Origin: Acidobacteriaceae bacterium
GTDB taxonomy: Bacteria; Acidobacteriota; Terriglobia; Terriglobales; Acidobacteriaceae
Assembly: GCA_027449545.1 (NCBI GenBank)
Contig: DAIDLI010000221.1
Coordinates: 1-64,000 of the forward strand
Reading direction: 5' to 3'
DNA: 64,000 nt
The notes under the pieces are model-generated. The model did no database searches and was not told the origin of the DNA. It was given only the letters and a program-made list of their open reading frames with translations. Positions 54,083 to 64,000 of the stretch are shown in pieces. The position numbers and the translations under genes were made by a program. The number at the start of each line of letters is the position of its first letter. Position 1 is the stretch's first letter.

Positions 54083-54970
54083 TCACTGCGAGATCGCGGG
54101 ACTCGGCAAACGGTAGACGTGCACGTAATCGACCAGCATGGTGGCAGGAAAGCGCGTGCTTGCGTCCGGATCGCCAGGCCAATAGCCTCCCACCGCCAGG
54201 TTCAGCACAACGTAGAAGGGGTGATCGAAGGCCCAATGCTTGCCGGGGGGCAGACTGCTAGCCTTCTGGGTCTCGTAAAGAGAGCCGTCCACGTAGAAGC
54301 GGATCTCTTTAGGCTCCCATTCGATGGCGAAGACGTGAAAGCCGTCGCTGAAGCGGGTGTTCCCGGGCAGCGAATAGGCAGCGCTGAGGGGATTGGCTCC
54401 CGAGTAGCCCGGGCCGTGCAGACTGCCATGCACGGTGAACGGCTCGAATCCGACGTTTTCCATGATGTCGATTTCGCCACAGGCCGGCCAGCCGGTGCTG
54501 GCGTAGTCGCTGCCCAGCAACCAGAAGGCCGGCCAGAGGCCTTTGCCTGCGGGAAGCTTGATGCGCGCCTCGATGCGTCCGTACTGGACATCAAACAGGC
54601 CGCGTGACTCAATGCGCGCAGAGGTATAGGCGCGGGTCTGACCATCCGGCCCGGTGAAGGATTCGCGCTGGGCGGTGATGACAAGGTGGCCGTCTTCCTC
54701 GTGGATATTGGAGGTGCGCGGGGTGTAGTATTCGAGCTCGCGGTTGCCGTAACCGGAACCGTTGGTGACCACCGCCCATTTTTTGGGATCGGGCATGCTG
54801 TTGCGGGGGCCGTTGAAATCGTCGCCCCACAGGAGGGTGCGGTTGGCTGCGGTGGATGCGGTCTTAACGACCGGGTGCTGACCCGCGCCCTGGCAGACGC
54901 CTGCTGGCAGAAGCAACATAGCCGCCAGCGAAAGTGCGAGTATTTCAACGCGGCATTTGTCTCGTAACAT
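54083..54970 (-). CDS. GH16 beta-glucanase (laminarinase-like), secreted
   Basis: A 295-aa secreted enzyme with signal peptide ending GVCQGAG. The GH16 fold (LWGDDFNGPRNSMPDPKKWAVV) has the intact catalytic E-x-D-x-x-E in CGEIDIMENVG (E166, D168, E171). The aromatic subsites (LWPAFWLLGSDYASTGWPACG) and the IDIMEN form point to endo-beta-1,3- or mixed-linkage glucan. AAGGA lies 8 nt before ATG 54970. It is the last gene of the receptor-lipoprotein-GH16 operon. The bulge type suggests laminarin-like substrates; agar and carrageenan types differ. Confidence 0.95.
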   Translation of the reverse strand: MLRDKCRVEILALSLAAMLLLPAGVCQGAGQHPVVKTASTAANRTLLWGDDFNGPRNSMPDPKKWAVVTNGSGYGNRELEYYTPRTSNIHEEDGHLVITAQRESFTGPDGQTRAYTSARIESRGLFDVQYGRIEARIKLPAGKGLWPAFWLLGSDYASTGWPACGEIDIMENVGFEPFTVHGSLHGPGYSGANPLSAAYSLPGNTRFSDGFHVFAIEWEPKEIRFYVDGSLYETQKASSLPPGKHWAFDHPFYVVLNLAVGGYWPGDPDASTRFPATMLVDYVHVYRLPSPAISQ

Positions 54971-55049: not shown

Positions 55050-56180
55050 TCAGTTGGTGTACACGCGCACATAGTCCACGAGCATCTGGGCGGGGAACAC
55101 GGTGCTGGAGTTTGGGCTCCCCGGCCACGCGCCGCCCACTGCAAGGTTGATGAGGATGTAGTTCGCGCCCGCATTGAAGGGCCAGACCGCGCCGCTCAAA
55201 CTGCTGAGGCTTGAGGGGGTGTAGGTGACGTAGGGGTTGGCGGGATCGTCGATGTAGTAAGAGATCTTGTCCTTACTCCAGATCATGCCGTAGGTGTGCC
55301 AGCCAGCCGCGGTCTGGCCGTTGGTGAAGTTGTAGATGGTCCCCAGATCCGTACCGGTGAATCCGGTGCCGTGAATGGAGCCTTTATTCCAATCGGGATT
55401 GGTGGCGGCATTCACACGCTCCAGTACATCCATCTCTCCGCACGCGGGCCAGTTCACCTTGGCAACGTTGTTTCCGAGGAGCCAGAAGGCGGGCCACAGC
55501 CCCTGCTCTTCCGGCACCTGCGCGCGAACTTCCACCCGGCCATACTGAAAACTGAAGAGGCCCTGAGTTTTGAGCCGGCCGGAGGTGTAGACACCTGCGG
55601 AAGGTTGCTGCGCAACAACGTGCAGATAGCCGTCTTTGCCCACATACGCATTGGGACTGGCAGTACTACATGGGGCAGCAGAGGCATTCCATGCGCAGTA
55701 GGTTTCCAACTCGCCGTTGCCCCAGCCGCCGCCCCCGGCATCGAAGGCCCACACCTGCGGGTCAGGTTGTGCATTGGCGCCGCTGCTGTTGTTGAATTCG
55801 TCGGACCAGACCAGCGTGCCCGACGGGATGCTTAAAGAAAATGCCTGGCTGGCGACAGCGCTTGTGGCTTCGCCCGAGGCTGTGGCAATCGCGTTCACGG
55901 TGACATTGGAAGCGACGAGAAAGGGTGCGGTGTAGACCTGCGAGGAAGTGGTTGGAGCAGATCCATCCAGCGTGTAGTAGATGGTGGCTCCGGAGGTGCT
56001 GGTTGTGAGGGTTACGATCTTGGCGCCGTTCTGGGCTGAGGTGGAGCTGATGACGGGGGTTGAAGCCTGCTGCGCCGAACCGGAACTGGTGGTGCTGGCG
56101 CCGCCACCGCCGCAACCGGCGAAGATCAACGCGCCTGCAAGAAAGAAGGCAGAGATGCGCGAACACAGGAGATAAATCAC
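55050..56180 (-). CDS. GH16 beta-glucanase lipoprotein with a chitobiase-like N-terminal domain
   Basis: A 376-aa lipoprotein: a signal peptide of type VIYLLCSRISAFFLAGALIFAGC (Cys23 acylated), a Ser/Thr-rich linker, then a CHB/HEX-like domain (VTLTTSTSGATIYYTLDGSAPTTSSQVYTAPF). A GH16 domain with intact E-x-D-x-x-E in CGEMDVLERVN (E249, D251, E254) follows. It should display the enzyme on the cell surface beside the TonB receptor. GTG 56180 has GAGGA upstream and begins the signal peptide; GTG 56225 would add 15 polar residues. No ATG is suitable. It follows the receptor gene after a short spacer. Confidence 0.92.
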   Translation of the reverse strand: MIYLLCSRISAFFLAGALIFAGCGGGGASTTSSGSAQQASTPVISSTSAQNGAKIVTLTTSTSGATIYYTLDGSAPTTSSQVYTAPFLVASNVTVNAIATASGEATSAVASQAFSLSIPSGTLVWSDEFNNSSGANAQPDPQVWAFDAGGGGWGNGELETYCAWNASAAPCSTASPNAYVGKDGYLHVVAQQPSAGVYTSGRLKTQGLFSFQYGRVEVRAQVPEEQGLWPAFWLLGNNVAKVNWPACGEMDVLERVNAATNPDWNKGSIHGTGFTGTDLGTIYNFTNGQTAAGWHTYGMIWSKDKISYYIDDPANPYVTYTPSSLSSLSGAVWPFNAGANYILINLAVGGAWPGSPNSSTVFPAQMLVDYVRVYTN

Positions 56181-56282
56181 AGAGAGCTTTTCCTCGGGCT
56201 GAATTCTGCTGGACTGCTTTGGCACGGGTGAATCGAGGCTCCAGGCGGCTGTGTACGGCCGCCTGGAGCGTGACCGGATCGA

Positions 56283-59200
56283 TCAATAGGTGAAGCGCGC
56301 GCCGAACTGACCGACACGCCCGCCCAATCCTCCGTAGTTGAGGATCTTGCCGAAGTTGGGGTCGGCCATGTTGGTGTCCGGACCGGCCAGTTGATTGCGG
56401 TTGAACATGTTGAAGAACTCGAAACGCATGGTGAGGTTATAGCGCCCCTCAGGGCCCATGCTGACGCTCTTGTGCAGCCCGATGTCCTCCGTTGCCAGGC
56501 CAGGATTACGCACCTGGGAGAGGAAGTTACCGGCTGTGCCGAGTTGCCCCGGCGCGGGATTCTGGAAGCAGCTTGTATTGAGCCAGCTCTTATAGAGTGT
56601 CCGGCTTCCACTGGTCAGCTTGCAGTTGGGCGCCAGGTTCACGTAGACGGAATTGAAGCCCGGATAGGAGTTGGTGGAGTGTACCTGGACTGGGGTGCCG
56701 GTGTTGTAGTGGAAGTCTCCGTTGAGACTCCAACCGTTCACCACATTGTTAACAACCGGACCGGCATTGCCGAGCAGGGCGTGACCACGCCCGAAGGGCA
56801 GGTTATAGATGTAGTATCCCTTCACGATGTGGGTGATATCGAAGTCAGAGATGTTCTTTGCCTCGTTCTTGAGGTCGTAGATGTTCTGCAGGCTGCCGGT
56901 CGACCAAAGCTCTTCAAACGCCGTATCCACGTCGCCGTGAACGCGCGCCCACGCGTAGCTTCCCTGTAACGCGAGACCATGCACGGAGCGCCGCGTGACG
57001 CTGAATTGCAGGCTCTTGTAGTCGGAGTTGCCAAGTGGAGATCCGACGCTGAACAAAGGGCCATAGGAGACGGCCACCTGCGGATAGGGCGTAATACCCT
57101 GCCACCCGGGGCCGCCGTAGCCCCAATACGGGTTGGCGACGTAGGAGTCAGGAAACTTGCCGTTCAGAACGTAGTTCTGCATGTTGGCGACGGTGGGCTG
57201 GTTGGTAAGCAGGGTGCCGCTCTGGAGGTGGTAGCTGTGGCTCTGGATCCAGTCCACATCGAAGCGGGTGCTGGCATCCAGCTCGCGCTGTACGCCCACG
57301 CTGTATTGCTGGGTGTTTCCCGGGGTGAGCGAGCGCGGATCGATGCTGACCACGCCCCACTGCGTGTAGTCAGGGGTCTTCACCTGAGACAGCACGGGCT
57401 GGTAGCCGCTATCCCAGTTGAAATTGGACTCGGAGCTGTGCTGGTAATAGCCGGGATTACCGGTTTGCTGGTAGGGAATGCCTCCCCAGGTATTCATATT
57501 CAGCGGCGTGAAGAAGATGTCGAAGTTGCCGCGGAGCACGGTCTTGGGAGTCACCATGTAGGCTGCCCCGACGTGCGGCGCGTAGTTGTACCAGTCTTGG
57601 CGGCGCTCGAAGGATTGGCTGCCGCTGGTCAGGTATTCGTATTGGCCCATTTCTCCGGTGACGGTGTTTTTGTCGTTGATCTCAAAGCTCGACCAGTGTC
57701 CGTACTTTTCCTTGTAGGGGTTGTTGAAGTCCCAGCGCAGACTCATGTTCATGGTGAGCCGCGAATTCACCTTGAAGTCGTCCATGGCATACCAGGAGAA
57801 TGCCTTGCGACGACCGTACTGAGGATCGTTGGGCATTTCCGTGGCCAGGTAAACGTCGCCGAGCAGGAAGCTGGCAAAGGCGTTGCCGATCATGTTGTAG
57901 GCGTTGAAGTCATACCAGGCGGAAGCCGTGGAGGTGGGGTCGAAGGTAATGTTGTTGAAGGTACCCTGGTCGGGGTGGCTGTTGAACTGCATGGCGCGGA
58001 ATTCAACGCCCAGCTTCAGGTTGTGGCGTCCGCGGTTCCAGGTGACCTGATCGCTGTAGATGTACGTGTTGCCGGCATACACGTCGTTGAACTGGCTGCC
58101 TAAACCGGAGAAGTTCCAGCCGTTCTGGTAATTGCCGCCGTTGGTAAACATGCCACTGCTGAAGACGACCAGCGGGAAGTTACCCGCGCCGTTATTGATC
58201 CCCAGCGTCCGATCCCAGCTGTTTGCCTGCGAGATAGCGATGCTGGGATTGCGGAAACGGTTAAAGGTGGCGTAGACCGTGTTCACCAGATTGGGCGAAA
58301 AGATGTAGGTGTCGCTGAGGCGCGCACCCGCGGCGGTGGTGTTGTGCCAATAGGCGTTGGCCATGGGGCCGCCGTACTGCGCGGTCGGCGACCACACGCC
58401 CCCCTGGTCGGCGTTGATGCGGGGATAGTTGTCGTAGTAATACGAGCCCGCGATGTGCTGATTGTTGCTGAGGTTGTAGTCAACCTTGACGCTGCTCTGG
58501 GTGTTGTGGAACCAGGGGTCGGGATTGTAAGCGGGTCCGGCCTGGTTGGGAATGAGCGAAGTTTGCGGCTGGTAATACTTGTGAAAGAGCTGCAAGATCT
58601 GCGCGGAGGTCTTGCTGATCAGGTTGGTGGGAATCTGGTTGTTGACGAAGACGCAGCCGAATTTTCCGCCGGTCGCGGTGGCGGGGTTCACAATGGCGCC
58701 GCGGTAGATGGGATTGCCGCAATCGTCATAGGCAGGGGCGCCACCATAGGTCAGCACCGGAACACCCGGCGAGAGCATGGGGCTCAGGTCCGCATAGGGT
58801 GTTGCGTTGCCGCTGGAATCGAGGCCCATCATGGCGTCGGTGGGGACGGTGCGGGAGTTGGGGCCCAGCGCCCACATGGCCTGCATGTAGCGCTCCAGAG
58901 CGGCATAGTAGAAGAGCTTGTTCTTGAGGACGGGACCGCCGACGCCGCCACCCCAGTCGGAGAGGGAGTCGCTCTTGCGCAGGTAAGCAGGCGCATTGGC
59001 GGGATCGGTGATGGCCGCCAGGTGGTTCGCGGCGCTCAGCGCATCCAGGCCGGTGGAATGCATAAAGCCGAAGAGCGAGCCATGCATCTGGTTGGTGCCG
59101 GACTTCATTTCATAGCGGAAGACACCGCCGCCGCTGCGGCCGGCGTCGGCACTGATGCCGGCTGTATCAGCCTCGAACTCCTGCACGGCCTCCATTGGTG

Positions 59201-59813
59201 GCTGCGACTCGCTGATGTAGCCACCGAGTTGCGAGACCGCGGAAGTTCCATCGATCAGCACTTCCTTGGTCATCGCCATGCTGCCGTCGATGTGGGAACT
59301 GTAGTCGGTTCCTTCCGCTCCCGGAACATAGGCGAAGATGAAGTTGGAAAGATTGCGGCTGCCCTGAACGTTGAGTGGCAACTCGCTCACCGCCTGGCTG
59401 TTGAGGTTTGCGCCGATCGCGGTGTCCTGGGTTTCCAGGATCGGAGCCGCAGAGGTTACTTCCACGGTTTCCATAGCGCCGCCGACTTGCAGGGTGGCAT
59501 CGATTTCCGCAACCTGGCTGATCAGCAGGGTAATGCCGGTGCGATCGAGGTTCTTAAAGCCGGGCTTGGAAAAGTTGACGACATAGTGGCCGATGGGAAG
59601 GCTTCCGACCCGGTAAGATCCTGTGTCGTCGGTCTTGACGATTTGTGTAGCATTCGTCCCGACATTGGTGACGTGAACTTCGACTCCCGGCAGAACAGCC
59701 CCGGACGAATCTTTTACGGTCCCGGTGATCGTTGCACGATCCGATTGCGCCAGGACAGGCACGGCTAAAACCAGGGCGATCAGCGCCACCAGCTGCAAAC
59801 ACCTTTTCAACAT
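56283..59813 (-). CDS. TonB-dependent receptor, Oar-like (beta-glucan uptake)
   Basis: A 1,176-aa receptor with signal peptide ending VPVLAQ, a carboxypeptidase-regulatory-like domain (ATITGTVKDSSGAVLPGVEVHVTN), a plug (KEVLIDGTSAVSQLGGYISES) and a large barrel with Asn/Tyr/Gly-rich loops. It ends GRVGQFGARFTY, and ATG 59813 has GGAGGA 6 nt upstream. It is first in an operon with two GH16 glucanases, matching a surface degradation-and-uptake system for a glucan. The spacer before it (59814-60489) has candidate operators, and the next gene upstream encodes the GH16-sensor regulator. Confidence 0.95.
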   Translation of the reverse strand: MLKRCLQLVALIALVLAVPVLAQSDRATITGTVKDSSGAVLPGVEVHVTNVGTNATQIVKTDDTGSYRVGSLPIGHYVVNFSKPGFKNLDRTGITLLISQVAEIDATLQVGGAMETVEVTSAAPILETQDTAIGANLNSQAVSELPLNVQGSRNLSNFIFAYVPGAEGTDYSSHIDGSMAMTKEVLIDGTSAVSQLGGYISESQPPMEAVQEFEADTAGISADAGRSGGGVFRYEMKSGTNQMHGSLFGFMHSTGLDALSAANHLAAITDPANAPAYLRKSDSLSDWGGGVGGPVLKNKLFYYAALERYMQAMWALGPNSRTVPTDAMMGLDSSGNATPYADLSPMLSPGVPVLTYGGAPAYDDCGNPIYRGAIVNPATATGGKFGCVFVNNQIPTNLISKTSAQILQLFHKYYQPQTSLIPNQAGPAYNPDPWFHNTQSSVKVDYNLSNNQHIAGSYYYDNYPRINADQGGVWSPTAQYGGPMANAYWHNTTAAGARLSDTYIFSPNLVNTVYATFNRFRNPSIAISQANSWDRTLGINNGAGNFPLVVFSSGMFTNGGNYQNGWNFSGLGSQFNDVYAGNTYIYSDQVTWNRGRHNLKLGVEFRAMQFNSHPDQGTFNNITFDPTSTASAWYDFNAYNMIGNAFASFLLGDVYLATEMPNDPQYGRRKAFSWYAMDDFKVNSRLTMNMSLRWDFNNPYKEKYGHWSSFEINDKNTVTGEMGQYEYLTSGSQSFERRQDWYNYAPHVGAAYMVTPKTVLRGNFDIFFTPLNMNTWGGIPYQQTGNPGYYQHSSESNFNWDSGYQPVLSQVKTPDYTQWGVVSIDPRSLTPGNTQQYSVGVQRELDASTRFDVDWIQSHSYHLQSGTLLTNQPTVANMQNYVLNGKFPDSYVANPYWGYGGPGWQGITPYPQVAVSYGPLFSVGSPLGNSDYKSLQFSVTRRSVHGLALQGSYAWARVHGDVDTAFEELWSTGSLQNIYDLKNEAKNISDFDITHIVKGYYIYNLPFGRGHALLGNAGPVVNNVVNGWSLNGDFHYNTGTPVQVHSTNSYPGFNSVYVNLAPNCKLTSGSRTLYKSWLNTSCFQNPAPGQLGTAGNFLSQVRNPGLATEDIGLHKSVSMGPEGRYNLTMRFEFFNMFNRNQLAGPDTNMADPNFGKILNYGGLGGRVGQFGARFTY

Positions 59814-60489
59814 GGCTCATCCTCCAAAATGCTGCACGATCCATTTGCTTCCGCGCGCATTGTCAAACGTCGGCTCTGAGGCCTTCGCCGGACAGTTGGA
59901 GCTTCGTTGCTCAAAAAGGACAGCTTTCGGCCTTTTGAGGAAAGCCGCTCTCCCGCTTCTCCGCAGATCGCCTTGTGAGCTGAGCTGCCGAAGCGGAGCG
60001 CACCCGCGTATGCTTCACATCGGCTCCCGGCCTGAGACATCACAACATGCCCGCAGGAATCCTGGAACTTTGCGTATTGGAAGCTTCACGCGGAATCTCT
60101 GAAAAGTAAGGATGCGATAAATTTACACGTTACCCTCGCGGCGCATCCGCAAGGAGGGGAGCGGAGGCCGCCGCGTCGGGACGAACGATCTTCCCTGTCA
60201 TCCGCACGCGGTTCGATGGCCGCTGACACGAAACCGCCGCGGGGAACCTGCCGGCCACAACGGCGGCATGGGGCCATCGCGAGGCAGGGACTTGAGATAC
60301 GTTCAGCAGCTTGAACCGGAACTTGGTTCAACGGCAGGAAGACGGGGAAACGCGGAGAGGCACAGTCCTGCGAGTTTCCGTAGGCAAGGGGGGCATGCTG
60401 CCAGGGGACCGGTACGAGCGGGTTCGCGGGCGCAATTTACGACGTAAATCGAGCGTAAATCGGACTCGATTTACCCCTGGAGGGGCCGT
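59814..60489. other. Gene-free spacer between receptor operon and regulator gene
   Basis: It is 676 bp without a supported gene. It contains paired inverted repeats at 60435-60474 and a further ATTTACAC at 60121-60128. A GC-rich CCCCTGGAGGGG hairpin at 60474-60485 follows the regulator's stop and could end its transcript. A clear promoter for the receptor gene could not be chosen by eye. Confidence 0.6.
60435..60474. promoter_or_regulatory. Two adjacent inverted repeats, candidate operators
   Basis: The first is ATTTACG-A-CGTAAAT (60435-60449). Five bases later comes GTAAATCG-GACT-CGATTTAC (60455-60474). Both are perfect and use the same GTAAAT half-site, giving four half-sites in 40 bp. They stand out as AT-rich in a GC-rich spacer. 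They are just behind the regulator's stop codon, about 620 bp upstream of the receptor start. Confidence 0.6.
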
Positions 60490-62259
60490 TTAGCTTCCAG
60501 CCTTAACCTGAAAGGGCACAGTGAGCTGGGAGCGATCACCGCTGATCGTGGTGGCGGTAATGGTCACTTTATATTGTCCGGGCTGGGCCACCGTCCGTCC
60601 TTTCTCGGAGAAAGATTCCGTGGAGAGAGTGAGCGTGTCTTCCTGGGAGAGGGTGTCGGAGAAGTTCACCACCGAGGTGGCGAGCGAGCAGGCGGCCGTG
60701 GCGGGCTGGGCCGAGCAGGTCAAAAGCACCCGCCCTGAGTATTGCCGGGCCTGCAGGGTGACAATGCTGGCAGCGGAGGCACCAGCCTTTACCTGAACAG
60801 GCTGCCATTGGATGGACGGCGCCGGAATGGGAGGGATCCTGTAAACCCGCACGTAGTCCACAACCATGTCGGCCGGATTGGGGGTTGCGGCGGTGGGAGC
60901 ACCGGGCCAGTCGCCCCCGACGGCGAGGTTCAGGATCAGCGAGAAGGGGCGATCGAAGACCCACTCGCCGCCGGCGGGAATATCGTTGGCATCCTGGACA
61001 AAATAGACATTGGACGGATCATCCACATAGAACTGGATCATGCCGGGCGACCACACGATGCCATAGGTATGGAAGCTGCTGTCGTTGACGCGCGCCCCAC
61101 CGGGCAACTTGTAGTCGTGCCACAGCCCGTTTGCCCCGTAATAGCGGGGCCCGTGCACGGTGGCGCGAATCATCTCCGGTCCGAGGCCGTTGGTGCGCTG
61201 GGTGAGCGAGACATTCTCGGCAACGGAGACAGAACCCGAGGCGGGCCATCCGACTTTGGGGAAATCGGTTCCGAGCATCCAGAAGGAGGGCCAAAGACCG
61301 GCCCCGACGGGAAGCTTCATGCGGGCCTCGATGCGCCCATACTGGAAACCCTTGAGTCCGCTGGTGGTGATTCGGGCAGAGGTCCAGTTCCCCTCTGCGT
61401 TGCGCTCGGCGCGGAGGACCAGGTGGCCGGCGCCATCCAGAAACGCATTCGGACGCCGCGGGTTGCAACCGCGAGGATTTGCGCTGCCGGGGGCGCAGTA
61501 GATCTCCTCCTCGTGGTTCCCCCACCCATTCTGATTGCCGGTGTCGTAGGTCCATTTGGACGGGTCCGGGGTTTGCTGGGCTGCTCCATCAAAATCGTCG
61601 CTCCAAATGGGCTCACCCCAATCCGGAGAACTGCTGGCGGCGGGGGCGGGGTGCTTGACGCGCTGTCCTAGCAGATATCCGGCGACGAAAACGGTCGCGA
61701 CGGCAAGCAGGGCCGCGGCGGATTGAAAAATCAGCTTCCGCTTACCGGCGAACGGTTTGCGCAGGTTCGCCGCTAGAGCTTCAGCAGAGCTACTCTCGCG
61801 CTCCACGACCGGCTCGGCCGATTGCAATTGTTCGGCGGGCGTGTCCTCCTGCTGAGCACGCGCGAACCGAGGGACGTAATTCCCGACGGGCAAGACGATC
61901 TGGATGGGGCGGTCTTTCCCGTCGGCGGAGTAGATCTCGGCCAGTTTCTTGCGCAGGGCCCGCGCGGTTACGCGCACGATAGGGTCGATGTGGGAGTCGA
62001 AGTTTGCCGGCTTGCGGCCAAGCGCCTCAACCGCAATGGAATACTCGCGGATTTCTCCTGATTCGCCTTCGAAGTAGCGGTTACAAATAAAGGAGAGAAA
62101 GCGCACCAGGTTCGCGGATCGGACCATCTCCGGGTGGCGGAGCAGCCAGTCCAACTCCTCGCGTTCCTGCTGAAATTTGATTGGGGAGGGTTCCGCGAGG
62201 CCGGCGTCCTGTCCTTGTGCTTCTGACAGTCGATCTGAATGTACGCCCCGCGCCTCCAC
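60490..62259 (-). CDS. Transmembrane one-component regulator with a degenerate GH16 sensor domain
   Basis: A 589-aa protein. GTG 62259 is chosen because AGGAGG lies 7 nt upstream. Residues about 32-135 (NLVRFLSFICNRYFEG, EYSIAVEALG, DPIVRVTARALRKKLAEIY, LPVGNYVPRF) resemble the winged-helix-like N-terminal domain that acidobacteria and rhizobia place before membrane sensors. A single helix follows at about 176-198 (LIFQSAAALLAVATVFVAGYLLG). A GH16 domain spans 216-474 and an Ig-like domain 482-587. The GH16 fold is well kept (SDDFDGAAQQTPDPSKW, LWPSFWMLGTDF), but the catalytic E-x-D-x-x-E is SVSVAE: S343 and S345 replace the nucleophile and Asp, and only E348 remains. Topology should be N-in, C-periplasmic, as in CadC or ToxR. 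I infer a glucan-sensing transcription factor for the adjacent receptor/GH16 operon. Confidence 0.85.
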   Translation of the reverse strand: MEARGVHSDRLSEAQGQDAGLAEPSPIKFQQEREELDWLLRHPEMVRSANLVRFLSFICNRYFEGESGEIREYSIAVEALGRKPANFDSHIDPIVRVTARALRKKLAEIYSADGKDRPIQIVLPVGNYVPRFARAQQEDTPAEQLQSAEPVVERESSSAEALAANLRKPFAGKRKLIFQSAAALLAVATVFVAGYLLGQRVKHPAPAASSSPDWGEPIWSDDFDGAAQQTPDPSKWTYDTGNQNGWGNHEEEIYCAPGSANPRGCNPRRPNAFLDGAGHLVLRAERNAEGNWTSARITTSGLKGFQYGRIEARMKLPVGAGLWPSFWMLGTDFPKVGWPASGSVSVAENVSLTQRTNGLGPEMIRATVHGPRYYGANGLWHDYKLPGGARVNDSSFHTYGIVWSPGMIQFYVDDPSNVYFVQDANDIPAGGEWVFDRPFSLILNLAVGGDWPGAPTAATPNPADMVVDYVRVYRIPPIPAPSIQWQPVQVKAGASAASIVTLQARQYSGRVLLTCSAQPATAACSLATSVVNFSDTLSQEDTLTLSTESFSEKGRTVAQPGQYKVTITATTISGDRSQLTVPFQVKAGS

Positions 62260-62493
62260 CTTCAATCCTCCTAAGCAGAACCATGCGCCTTCGGTGCCCC
62301 GGAGCTCTTTAAGGAATCCTTCCTTTGGGAAGGAGAAGCTCAGAGGTTTATCGTGGACGAAGGTGGAGAAATCATAGCATCCCGCGGGGTGTTCCGGCGC
62401 TCCATGCTCCGGCTCGAGCAGGAGCGCGGGGCGGACAAACGCCCGCCGGGCGGCTGTTCGTGATGGCCTGTCGCGCATCCCTCGAAAGGGGCT

Positions 62494-64000
62494 TCAGTAA
62501 CGGGCCAGCAATCCCGAGGGGGGCCGGTCCGCTGCCTGGGTGGCCCAGCTCTTGTTCGGCTTATCGCTCATGCGGAAGCGCAGTTCGCCACCGGCCATAA
62601 TGTCGGCATGCGTGAACCAGCAGCGATGGAGCGGTCTCCCATTCAACTGCACGCTCTCCACGTAGATGTTGCGATCAGAATTGTTCTCGGCAACGATGCT
62701 GAAGGTTGTGCCGGCATGAGGGTTGCGGAGCACGGCGCGATTCACGAGCGGACTGCCAAGCACATACACACCCGTGACTGCATTCACCGGATAAAAGCCC
62801 AGCGCGGCGAAGTTGAACCAGGTGGAGATCTGGCCGCAGTCGTCATTGCCGGGCACGCCCGCCGGGGTGTTCTTGTAGATCCGCGCCACCTGGCGCACGC
62901 GCTCCTGGGTCTTCCAGGGCGCGCCGGCGAAAGCATACAGATACGGGATATGGTTGCTGGGCTCGTTTCCCTGCGCATCCTGGCCGATCATGCCGCTGAT
63001 ATCGGGAGGCGAATTGAGGATATTCGAGGGGGCAGAGAAGAGGGCATCGAGCTTGGCGACGAAGGCCTGGTCGCCACCGAAAAGATCGATCAGACCCTGC
63101 ACGTCCTGCATCACGTTGAAGGTCGCCTGCCAGGCGTCGGACTCGGTGTAGTCGGTCCAGTACTGCTGATCGGGACGAAAGGGCTCGCGCCACTTGCCAT
63201 GTTCCGTTTTGCCGCGCATAAAGCCTGTTGTGCGATCGAAGAGGTTTCTGTAGTTCTGGCCGAGCTTGTAGAACATGGCTGCGTCGTCGTGGCGGCCGAG
63301 CAAGTCGGCCATGGCGCCCACGCACCAATAGTCGTAGGCGAAATCGAGCGTCCGCGACACCGATTGCCGACCTGGGCCGCTTGCGACGTAGCCCAAGCTG
63401 CGGAACTGCTCCTGCAGGGACTTATTGTCGTTGGCGGTGGCGCCGACCATCGCCGTATCGCGCATCGCGTTGTAGGCAGCTTCCACATCAAAGTCCCGCA
63501 GCCCGCGCGTGTAGGCGCCCACGATCAGGCCGACGACATGGAATCCGGTCATGCACCAGGTCTCATTGCCCCAGAGCGGCCATACCGGAAGCGAGTGCTG
63601 ACCGAGCTGACGATAATCGGCCAGCATGGTCTTCACGATGTCGCCGATGCGTTGCGGCTGCATCAGGCAGAGGAAGGGAAATTCTCCCCGGTAGATATCC
63701 CAAATCGAGAGGGTGGTGTATTTCGTGAAGCCTGGGTTGGGATAGTTTTTGTGGTCCTGTCCGCGGTAGGCGCCATCCACGTCGTTGAAGGTGGCGGGCG
63801 CCACCATTCCGTGGTAGGCGGCGGTCGCAAAGACCTGCTGCAGCTTGGGATCGGGCAGCGTGGCGTTGAGAGGGCTGAGCGTATGGTTCCACTGCTGTTG
63901 ATTGTGACGCCGCGTCGCTTCAAAATCCCACTGCTGGATCTCGGCCGCCAGATTCTTGGCGGCGCCCTCCACGCTCGTGCCTGAGATTCCCACACGCACA
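62494..64000 (-). CDS. GH92 alpha-mannosidase, partial (N-terminus outside the window)
   Basis: The last 501 residues of a GH92 protein. Landmarks are FTKYTTLSIWDIYRGEFPFLCLMQP, GYVASGPGRQSVSRTLDFAYDYWCVG, QYWTDYTESDAWQATFNVMQDVQG, EPSNHIPYLYAFAG and GVPGNDDCGQISTWFNFAALGFYPVN, with the acid residue expected in the NEPSNHIPY region. GH92 are Ca-dependent exo-alpha-mannosidases acting on mannans or N-glycans, usually secreted. The coding frame is open through the right edge, so the start and signal peptide lie beyond it. It shares strand with the glucan regulator. Confidence 0.95.
   Translation of the reverse strand, partial: VRVGISGTSVEGAAKNLAAEIQQWDFEATRRHNQQQWNHTLSPLNATLPDPKLQQVFATAAYHGMVAPATFNDVDGAYRGQDHKNYPNPGFTKYTTLSIWDIYRGEFPFLCLMQPQRIGDIVKTMLADYRQLGQHSLPVWPLWGNETWCMTGFHVVGLIVGAYTRGLRDFDVEAAYNAMRDTAMVGATANDNKSLQEQFRSLGYVASGPGRQSVSRTLDFAYDYWCVGAMADLLGRHDDAAMFYKLGQNYRNLFDRTTGFMRGKTEHGKWREPFRPDQQYWTDYTESDAWQATFNVMQDVQGLIDLFGGDQAFVAKLDALFSAPSNILNSPPDISGMIGQDAQGNEPSNHIPYLYAFAGAPWKTQERVRQVARIYKNTPAGVPGNDDCGQISTWFNFAALGFYPVNAVTGVYVLGSPLVNRAVLRNPHAGTTFSIVAENNSDRNIYVESVQLNGRPLHRCWFTHADIMAGGELRFRMSDKPNKSWATQAADRPPSGLLARY

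Follow-up and report, generated by a model that had tools for sequence, protein, structure and literature searches.

In regulators of the CadC and ToxR type, an N-terminal OmpR-type winged helix is joined by one transmembrane helix to a periplasmic sensor and AT-rich paired sites are bound, as described in the available parts of two sources (PMC5430869, which details this binding for CadC, and PMC10269533). Transcription regulators with a transmembrane segment are widespread, with some enrichment in Acidobacteriae; in the available main text of the survey reporting this, the terms 'hydrolase', 'glycos' and 'sugar' do not occur (PMC10269533). RsgI6 of Clostridium thermocellum is an anti-sigma factor with a GH10 sensor domain of very low activity, and RsgI proteins signal by proteolytic release (PMC4711584 and PMC12203970, available parts). 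SusR of Bacteroides is a one-component periplasmic polysaccharide sensor and an activator (PMC3878776, available part). Here we analyzed a 64,000-nucleotide stretch (the window) of an Acidobacteriaceae bacterium (assembly GCA_027449545.1, contig DAIDLI010000221.1, positions 1 to 64,000), in which one gene encodes a protein, hereafter the sensor, that combines a predicted winged-helix domain with a GH16 glycosidase domain lacking its nucleophile. Acidobacteria rank with the most abundant bacteria in soil and, to our knowledge, little is known about how they sense polysaccharides.

The sensor resembles CadC and ToxR in having an N-terminal OmpR/PhoB-type winged helix, by prediction, and a single transmembrane helix, N-terminus inside, that separates the DNA-binding and periplasmic domains. 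However, its winged helix is much diverged and missed by the Pfam model, and its sensory part is a pseudo-GH16 domain followed by an Ig-like domain. Like RsgI6, it is a regulator spanning the membrane that would retain a glycoside hydrolase domain of very low activity in order to bind polysaccharide, but RsgI6, as far as its available description goes, is a Gram-positive GH10 protein working through a sigma factor (PMC4711584), whereas here the domain is GH16 and the nucleophile is lost in every ortholog seen. The RsgI anti-sigma N-terminal domain had no Pfam match in the sensor at E <= 1. SusR, in the available text, is likewise a membrane one-component activator with a periplasmic sensor at a SusC-type polysaccharide locus, but it is restricted to Bacteroidetes and carries a helix-turn-helix near its C-terminus (PMC3878776); the C-terminus of the sensor is all-beta by structure prediction and its DNA-binding-type domain is N-terminal. 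What is new here is the pseudo-GH16 sensor on a ToxR-like regulator, transmembrane regulators and low-activity glycosidase sensors being already known. The original prediction knew of no glucan sensor of such design, and in the literature searched, which left out most subscription papers, we saw no account of a glycosidase domain, dead or otherwise, as part of a membrane regulator that binds DNA.

We propose, at a probability of roughly 70%, that the sensor is a CadC/ToxR-like one-component transmembrane activator that reads glucan through its pseudo-GH16 domain and drives a neighboring operon of a receptor and two GH16 enzymes. The core of this proposal, a membrane transcription factor with a dead GH16 glucan sensor and the neighboring operon as its target, is supported by the winged-helix homology, by loss of the nucleophile in 22/22 orthologs (21 named full-length proteins, L038-L058, plus the window's own) with the domain otherwise conserved, by the linkage to glucan genes and by a promoter element that tracks the sensor.

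Architecture of the sensor and its GH16 domain

The features of the sensor gene are as follows.
60490..62259, minus strand: sensor gene, 589 amino acids, putative membrane transcription regulator with pseudo-GH16 domain, GTG start at 62259
62267..62272, minus strand: ribosome binding site AGGAGG, seven bases 5' of the sensor GTG
61855..62175, minus strand: predicted divergent OmpR/PhoB-type winged-helix domain, N-terminal, about residues 29-135
61660..61740, minus strand: single transmembrane helix, within residues 174-200
60835..61617, minus strand: pseudo-GH16 domain, residues 215-475, from Pfam and PDB sequence searches
61213..61239, minus strand: catalytic motif in its dead form, SGSVSVAEN (residues 341-349), with the nucleophile lost at position 343
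60493..60834, minus strand: Ig-like beta domain, C-terminal, also found on some secreted GH16 relatives

The reading frame is open further, to 62478; the stretch beyond the GTG is not needed. The original prediction had read a winged-helix-like N-terminal domain, one transmembrane helix, a GH16 domain and an Ig-like domain in this chain, and all four were recovered. The GH16 domain was matched by Pfam (5.6e-13), and its nearest PDB sequences were the bacterial laminarinases 3atg and 2hyk (E ~1e-61, over residues 215-475). By sequence it belongs to GH16 in its fold and lacks the catalytic E-x-D-x-x-E, with SGSVSVAEN where both laminarinases have SGEIDIMEN. The two neighboring enzymes carry the motif intact (GEIDIMEN in GH16a, GEMDVLER in GH16b), just as had been read from the window.

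A search for the same architecture, with alignment of the catalytic positions, showed that the first catalytic Glu is gone in all 22 orthologs, replaced by Ser in 20 and by Ala or Thr in one each. The catalytic Asp is kept in 7 and the last Glu, the acid/base, in 20, being Gln in L039 and L058. The earlier reading that two catalytic acids are Ser thus describes the window's species but not the family, in which only the loss of the first Glu is invariant. We compared the orthologs with 36 related GH16 domains that lack a regulator part and all retain the Glu and Asp. Among columns in which at least 90% of these reference domains share one residue, 58 of 66 were retained by 80% or more of the sensors. 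The other eight comprise the first and second catalytic positions and six sites (an Ile, Ala, Val, Pro, Met and Leu) where the substitutions are mostly mild. The nucleophile was the sole conserved column absent from all sensors. Judged by sequence, the domain has kept its fold and appears to have lost catalysis; the full-length predicted model was too poor for judging the GH16 cleft.

In a tree of 58 GH16 domains, all 22 sensors fell on one branch (support 100/98), close to secreted GH16s, some of which combine this Ig-like domain with a motif that is intact. The simplest history would be one fusion to a secreted GH16 enzyme, with the nucleophile lost before the family spread. In genome G023, a second copy of the GH16-Ig part was observed at a contig end (C103:1-783).

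A hydrophobic segment lies between the N-terminal domain and GH16 in every ortholog, weakly so in L058 (1.27), at 15-24 residues from the GH16 domain. Lys and Arg are richer before than after the segment in just 15 of the 22, so the N-in orientation rests partly on the domain types. The original prediction of a CadC/ToxR-type switch from the cell surface to DNA stands in its topology but not in its location: from what is established about the phylum, whose cells are diderm, and from the transmembrane topology, the GH16 domain should face the periplasm.

The N-terminal domain of the window's sensor had no Pfam match. Its predicted fold, five helices followed by a beta hairpin with blocks above 90 in the predicted local distance difference test, was most like winged-helix DNA-binding domains in structure comparison, as had been anticipated. 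Foldseek against the PDB gave nothing at E <= 0.001, and a profile search of PDB sequences returned only a chance ferritin. Profile comparison with Trans_reg_C did not succeed with 18 N-domain sequences; it succeeded with a broader set of 96, and without two bridging members the probability was 63.5%. This sequence and model evidence places the N-domain among the OmpR/PhoB (Trans_reg_C) winged helices, as a divergent member.

Distribution and gene neighborhood

Full-length matches to the sensor were found in 17 of 149 related genomes (its own included); one more genome, G090, was matched in two pieces. In the named collection, the N-domain occurred at 25 loci and the full architecture at 21, one of them in the cultured Terracidiphilus gabretensis S55. 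Seventeen of these 21 loci come from assemblies that are also in the 149-genome set, the additional four being L042, L046, L051 and L056. Among 299 genomes sampled more widely from the class, the full architecture appeared as one match in only three, all of the same genus; this search would overlook proteins whose match is split into two weaker pieces. Within this sampling, the design has a narrow distribution: it is found in one genus (Terracidiphilus), in G081 (another genus of the same family) and in G090 (same order).

Downstream of the sensor gene in the window lie the following genes.
56283..59813, minus strand: TonB-dependent-receptor-type protein (CarboxypepD_reg and OMP_b-brl_4), proposed target
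55050..56225, minus strand: active-type GH16b (GEMDVLER)
54083..54970, minus strand: active-type GH16a (GEIDIMEN)

The original prediction placed the sensor beside an operon of its active relatives and their uptake channel, and this arrangement recurs: at 14 of 22 loci the sensor shares its strand with this receptor (at least 62% identity to the window's), with both GH16 genes present save for contig-end cuts in L038 and L048. The sensor comes first in the window, L038, L040, L041, L043 and L048, and last in L045, L046, L049, L052-L055 and L057. The T. gabretensis locus (L044, NZ_LAIJ01000009.1) has GH16a, a GH3 and a receptor that is just 33% identical. Three further sensors stand with GH81 (L042, L051, L056) and one with GH3 (L058); L039 is cut by a contig end, and in L047 and L050 the sensor has no such neighbors within 8 kb and a separate contig carries the receptor cluster. 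The theme shared by the neighbors is beta-glucan, not one protein partner. No further gene was seen to recur widely around the sensors, the other recurring frames being shadows of the genes named above, as judged by eye.

Receptor orthologs (E <= 1e-250) were present in 18 of the 149 genomes, 16 of them with the sensor. Two genomes have the receptor without the sensor (G017, G068) and two the sensor without that receptor (G005, G090). The Fisher p for this co-occurrence is ~2e-18 to 2e-17, a value overstated by relatedness.

The GH81 genes next to the sensor are large, with fn3 and Ig domains (in L042, L051:2842-8055 and L056:9912-15191). In the window, a GH92 family gene (62494-63999) lies immediately 5' of the sensor on the same strand.

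Conserved elements at the receptor promoter

In sensor-first loci, the gap 5' of the receptor gene retains two elements within much diverged sequence. In the window, these elements and the adjoining core promoter are as follows.
60434..60474, minus strand: operator-like element 1, four GTAAATY half-sites in the order > < < >
60106..60126, minus strand: operator-like element 2, GTAAATTTATC-N6-TTAC
60076..60105, minus strand: weak conserved core promoter, -35 TTTTCA, 18-nt spacer, -10 TCCAAT

Across loci, element 1 is a cluster of GTAAATC half-sites, and half-sites precede the receptor also where the sensor is last or elsewhere. In the 14 genomes with sensor, this receptor and at least 700 nt of upstream sequence, we counted 3-6 GTAAAT sites per 716-800 nt 5' of the receptor, against a shuffle mean of 0.1-0.3. 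Shuffles never reached the observed count in 13 of them and did so in 2/300 for G051. A role of element 1 as terminator of the sensor gene was ruled out, as it precedes the receptor also with the sensor downstream or on another contig.

Element 2 takes the form GTAAATTTATC-N5/6-TTAC across loci. In 15 genomes, including variant forms in G023, G025 and G046, it runs into TTTCCA (or TTTTCA, TATTCA, TTTCTT), followed by 18 nt and TTSAAT or TCCAAT; the -10 was located by pattern, so its letters were chosen, whereas its constant distance was not. G063 and L046 have further variants with the same layout. Strict or variant, element 2 abuts a weak -35 in 17/17 sensor genomes with a readable promoter, a count that leaves aside G071 (promoter at a contig end, behind the sensor) and G081 (no upstream sequence). 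In the genomes read, the core promoter departs strongly from the sigma-70 consensus. Strict GTAAATTTATC-N4-7-TTAC occurs once each in 12 of the 149 genomes, every one with the sensor, and the reversed-pattern control had zero occurrences in the same set. In the most distant ortholog locus, one relaxed match to element 2 lies ~230 nt before the GH3 frame (L058:10102), without the usual -10; it was not counted.

Both elements also stand before the dissimilar receptor of T. gabretensis, and therefore the elements follow the regulator, not the receptor. Conversely, G017 and G068 have zero GTAAAT sites 5' of the receptor. There a divergent LacI-family gene adjoins the receptor (L096:6141-7223 and L097:13143-14264, by Pfam). 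These LacI genes are like the sensor in standing by orthologous receptor and GH16b genes, from which they diverge, but their promoter is without GTAAATC elements. This appears to be a natural joint exchange of regulator and operator. LacI-family regulators are expected to be soluble sensors of imported sugar.

The exact palindrome ATTTACNNGTAAAT was found in 14 of the 149 genomes, nine with the sensor, where it lies at the receptor promoter, and five without (G024, G035, G040, G047, G135). At the latter five loci (L082-L085, L092), no receptor- or glucan-like genes were seen by eye. The window's own genome has no exact ATTTACNNGTAAAT (spacing 3) and one near match elsewhere. The half-site cluster was not found at the sensor's own start, where autoregulation would place it.

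Proposed mechanism and alternative explanations

The sensor probably switches on genes for eating fungal or algal beta-1,3-glucan. In the proposed mechanism, the winged helix would lie in the cytoplasm and the GH16 fold in the periplasm, with a single helix across the inner membrane. Glucan fragments brought across the outer membrane by the receptor would be read in the periplasm, where the nucleophile-less GH16 would bind but not cut them; beta-1,3-glucan fragments are the likely ligand because of the fold, the conserved domain and the neighboring genes. Binding would shift the sensor, probably via dimerization or reorientation, and signaling might involve CadC-like dimerization in the membrane or proteolytic release of the kind described for RsgI. 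The DNA-binding domains would then settle on the GTAAATC half-sites, at element 2 next to the poor -35 and at element 1 further upstream, and recruit RNA polymerase to the receptor/GH16b/GH16a operon. An OmpR-type helix would fit such AT-rich paired half-sites, much as in CadC (PMC5430869). A class II activator needs a site flush with a poor -35 plus further upstream sites, which fits the layout here.

The same protein and DNA sites could instead serve repression until glucan releases the promoter. Element 2 adjoins the -35, a possible repressor seat, and several upstream half-sites could support looping, but the core promoter is as poor as expected for an activated one, and the nearest working models, CadC and SusR, are activators in their available descriptions; we consider repression unlikely. 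Against the link between elements and sensor, neither element is found near the sensor in L042, L051 and L056. In G063 and G016 the sensor is on another contig than the receptor cluster, with the elements still present. This arrangement would suit a membrane-anchored periplasmic glucan-binding protein or scaffold, with another, unlinked regulator owning the GTAAATC elements, as would the fact that DNA binding by the sensor is deduced from sequence. However, the domain on the cytoplasmic side shows kinship with Trans_reg_C, the elements occur together with the sensor and are missing where a LacI regulator takes its place, and no other regulator recurs near sensor loci; we consider a scaffold unlikely as well.

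The two remaining alternatives concern what the periplasmic domain does. It might sense a protein partner, such as the plug of the receptor or one of the GH16 enzymes; pseudoenzymes often work through protein contacts, and no ligand is known for the Ig-like domain. Against this, orthologs away from the receptor adjoin GH81 or GH3, the shared theme being beta-glucan, and we regard a protein partner as improbable. Hydrolysis by another route, with the regulator sensing its own product, seems very improbable; the acid/base Glu is kept in most orthologs and the remaining domain is conserved, but the GH16 retaining mechanism requires the nucleophile, which is replaced in all orthologs, and two have lost the acid/base as well.

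Beyond the activating glucan sensor itself, we lean towards a broader picture, in which a laminarinase-type domain, acquired in one event from a secreted GH16 with an Ig domain, was deprived of its nucleophile and now serves as the periplasmic sensor of a ToxR-like activator that apparently has a single target promoter in each genome and can be exchanged for a LacI regulator. The family would then be one branch of a large, hardly described class of transmembrane regulators in Acidobacteria, in which one divergent winged helix is combined with exchangeable sensors (pseudo-GH16, malectin pairs, beta-propellers, TPR and an unnamed domain). If our proposal is true, the sensor would give a complete, testable polysaccharide switch in Acidobacteria, with sensor, ligand class, operator and target, and a clean case of an enzyme turned receptor together with a natural regulator exchange on one operon. 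The cultured carrier T. gabretensis S55 makes the proposal directly testable.

Other proteins carry the same N-domain. L003, L005, L006, L007 and many survey members join it to a recurring C-terminal domain of ~280 amino acids, which had no Pfam match in L005-L007, the three of these four that were scanned. The window's own genome encodes a paralog (L002 / L099:12085-13662) with the same N-domain and transmembrane helix and with malectin domains in two stretches, possibly another carbohydrate sensor of the same class; malectin C-termini were seen in 8 of 78 surveyed relatives. At L144:588-2123, the N-domain and transmembrane helix are followed by a region matching the lambda-carrageenase beta-propeller (PF25292, 2e-6), and this protein may be a second enzyme-derived sensor.
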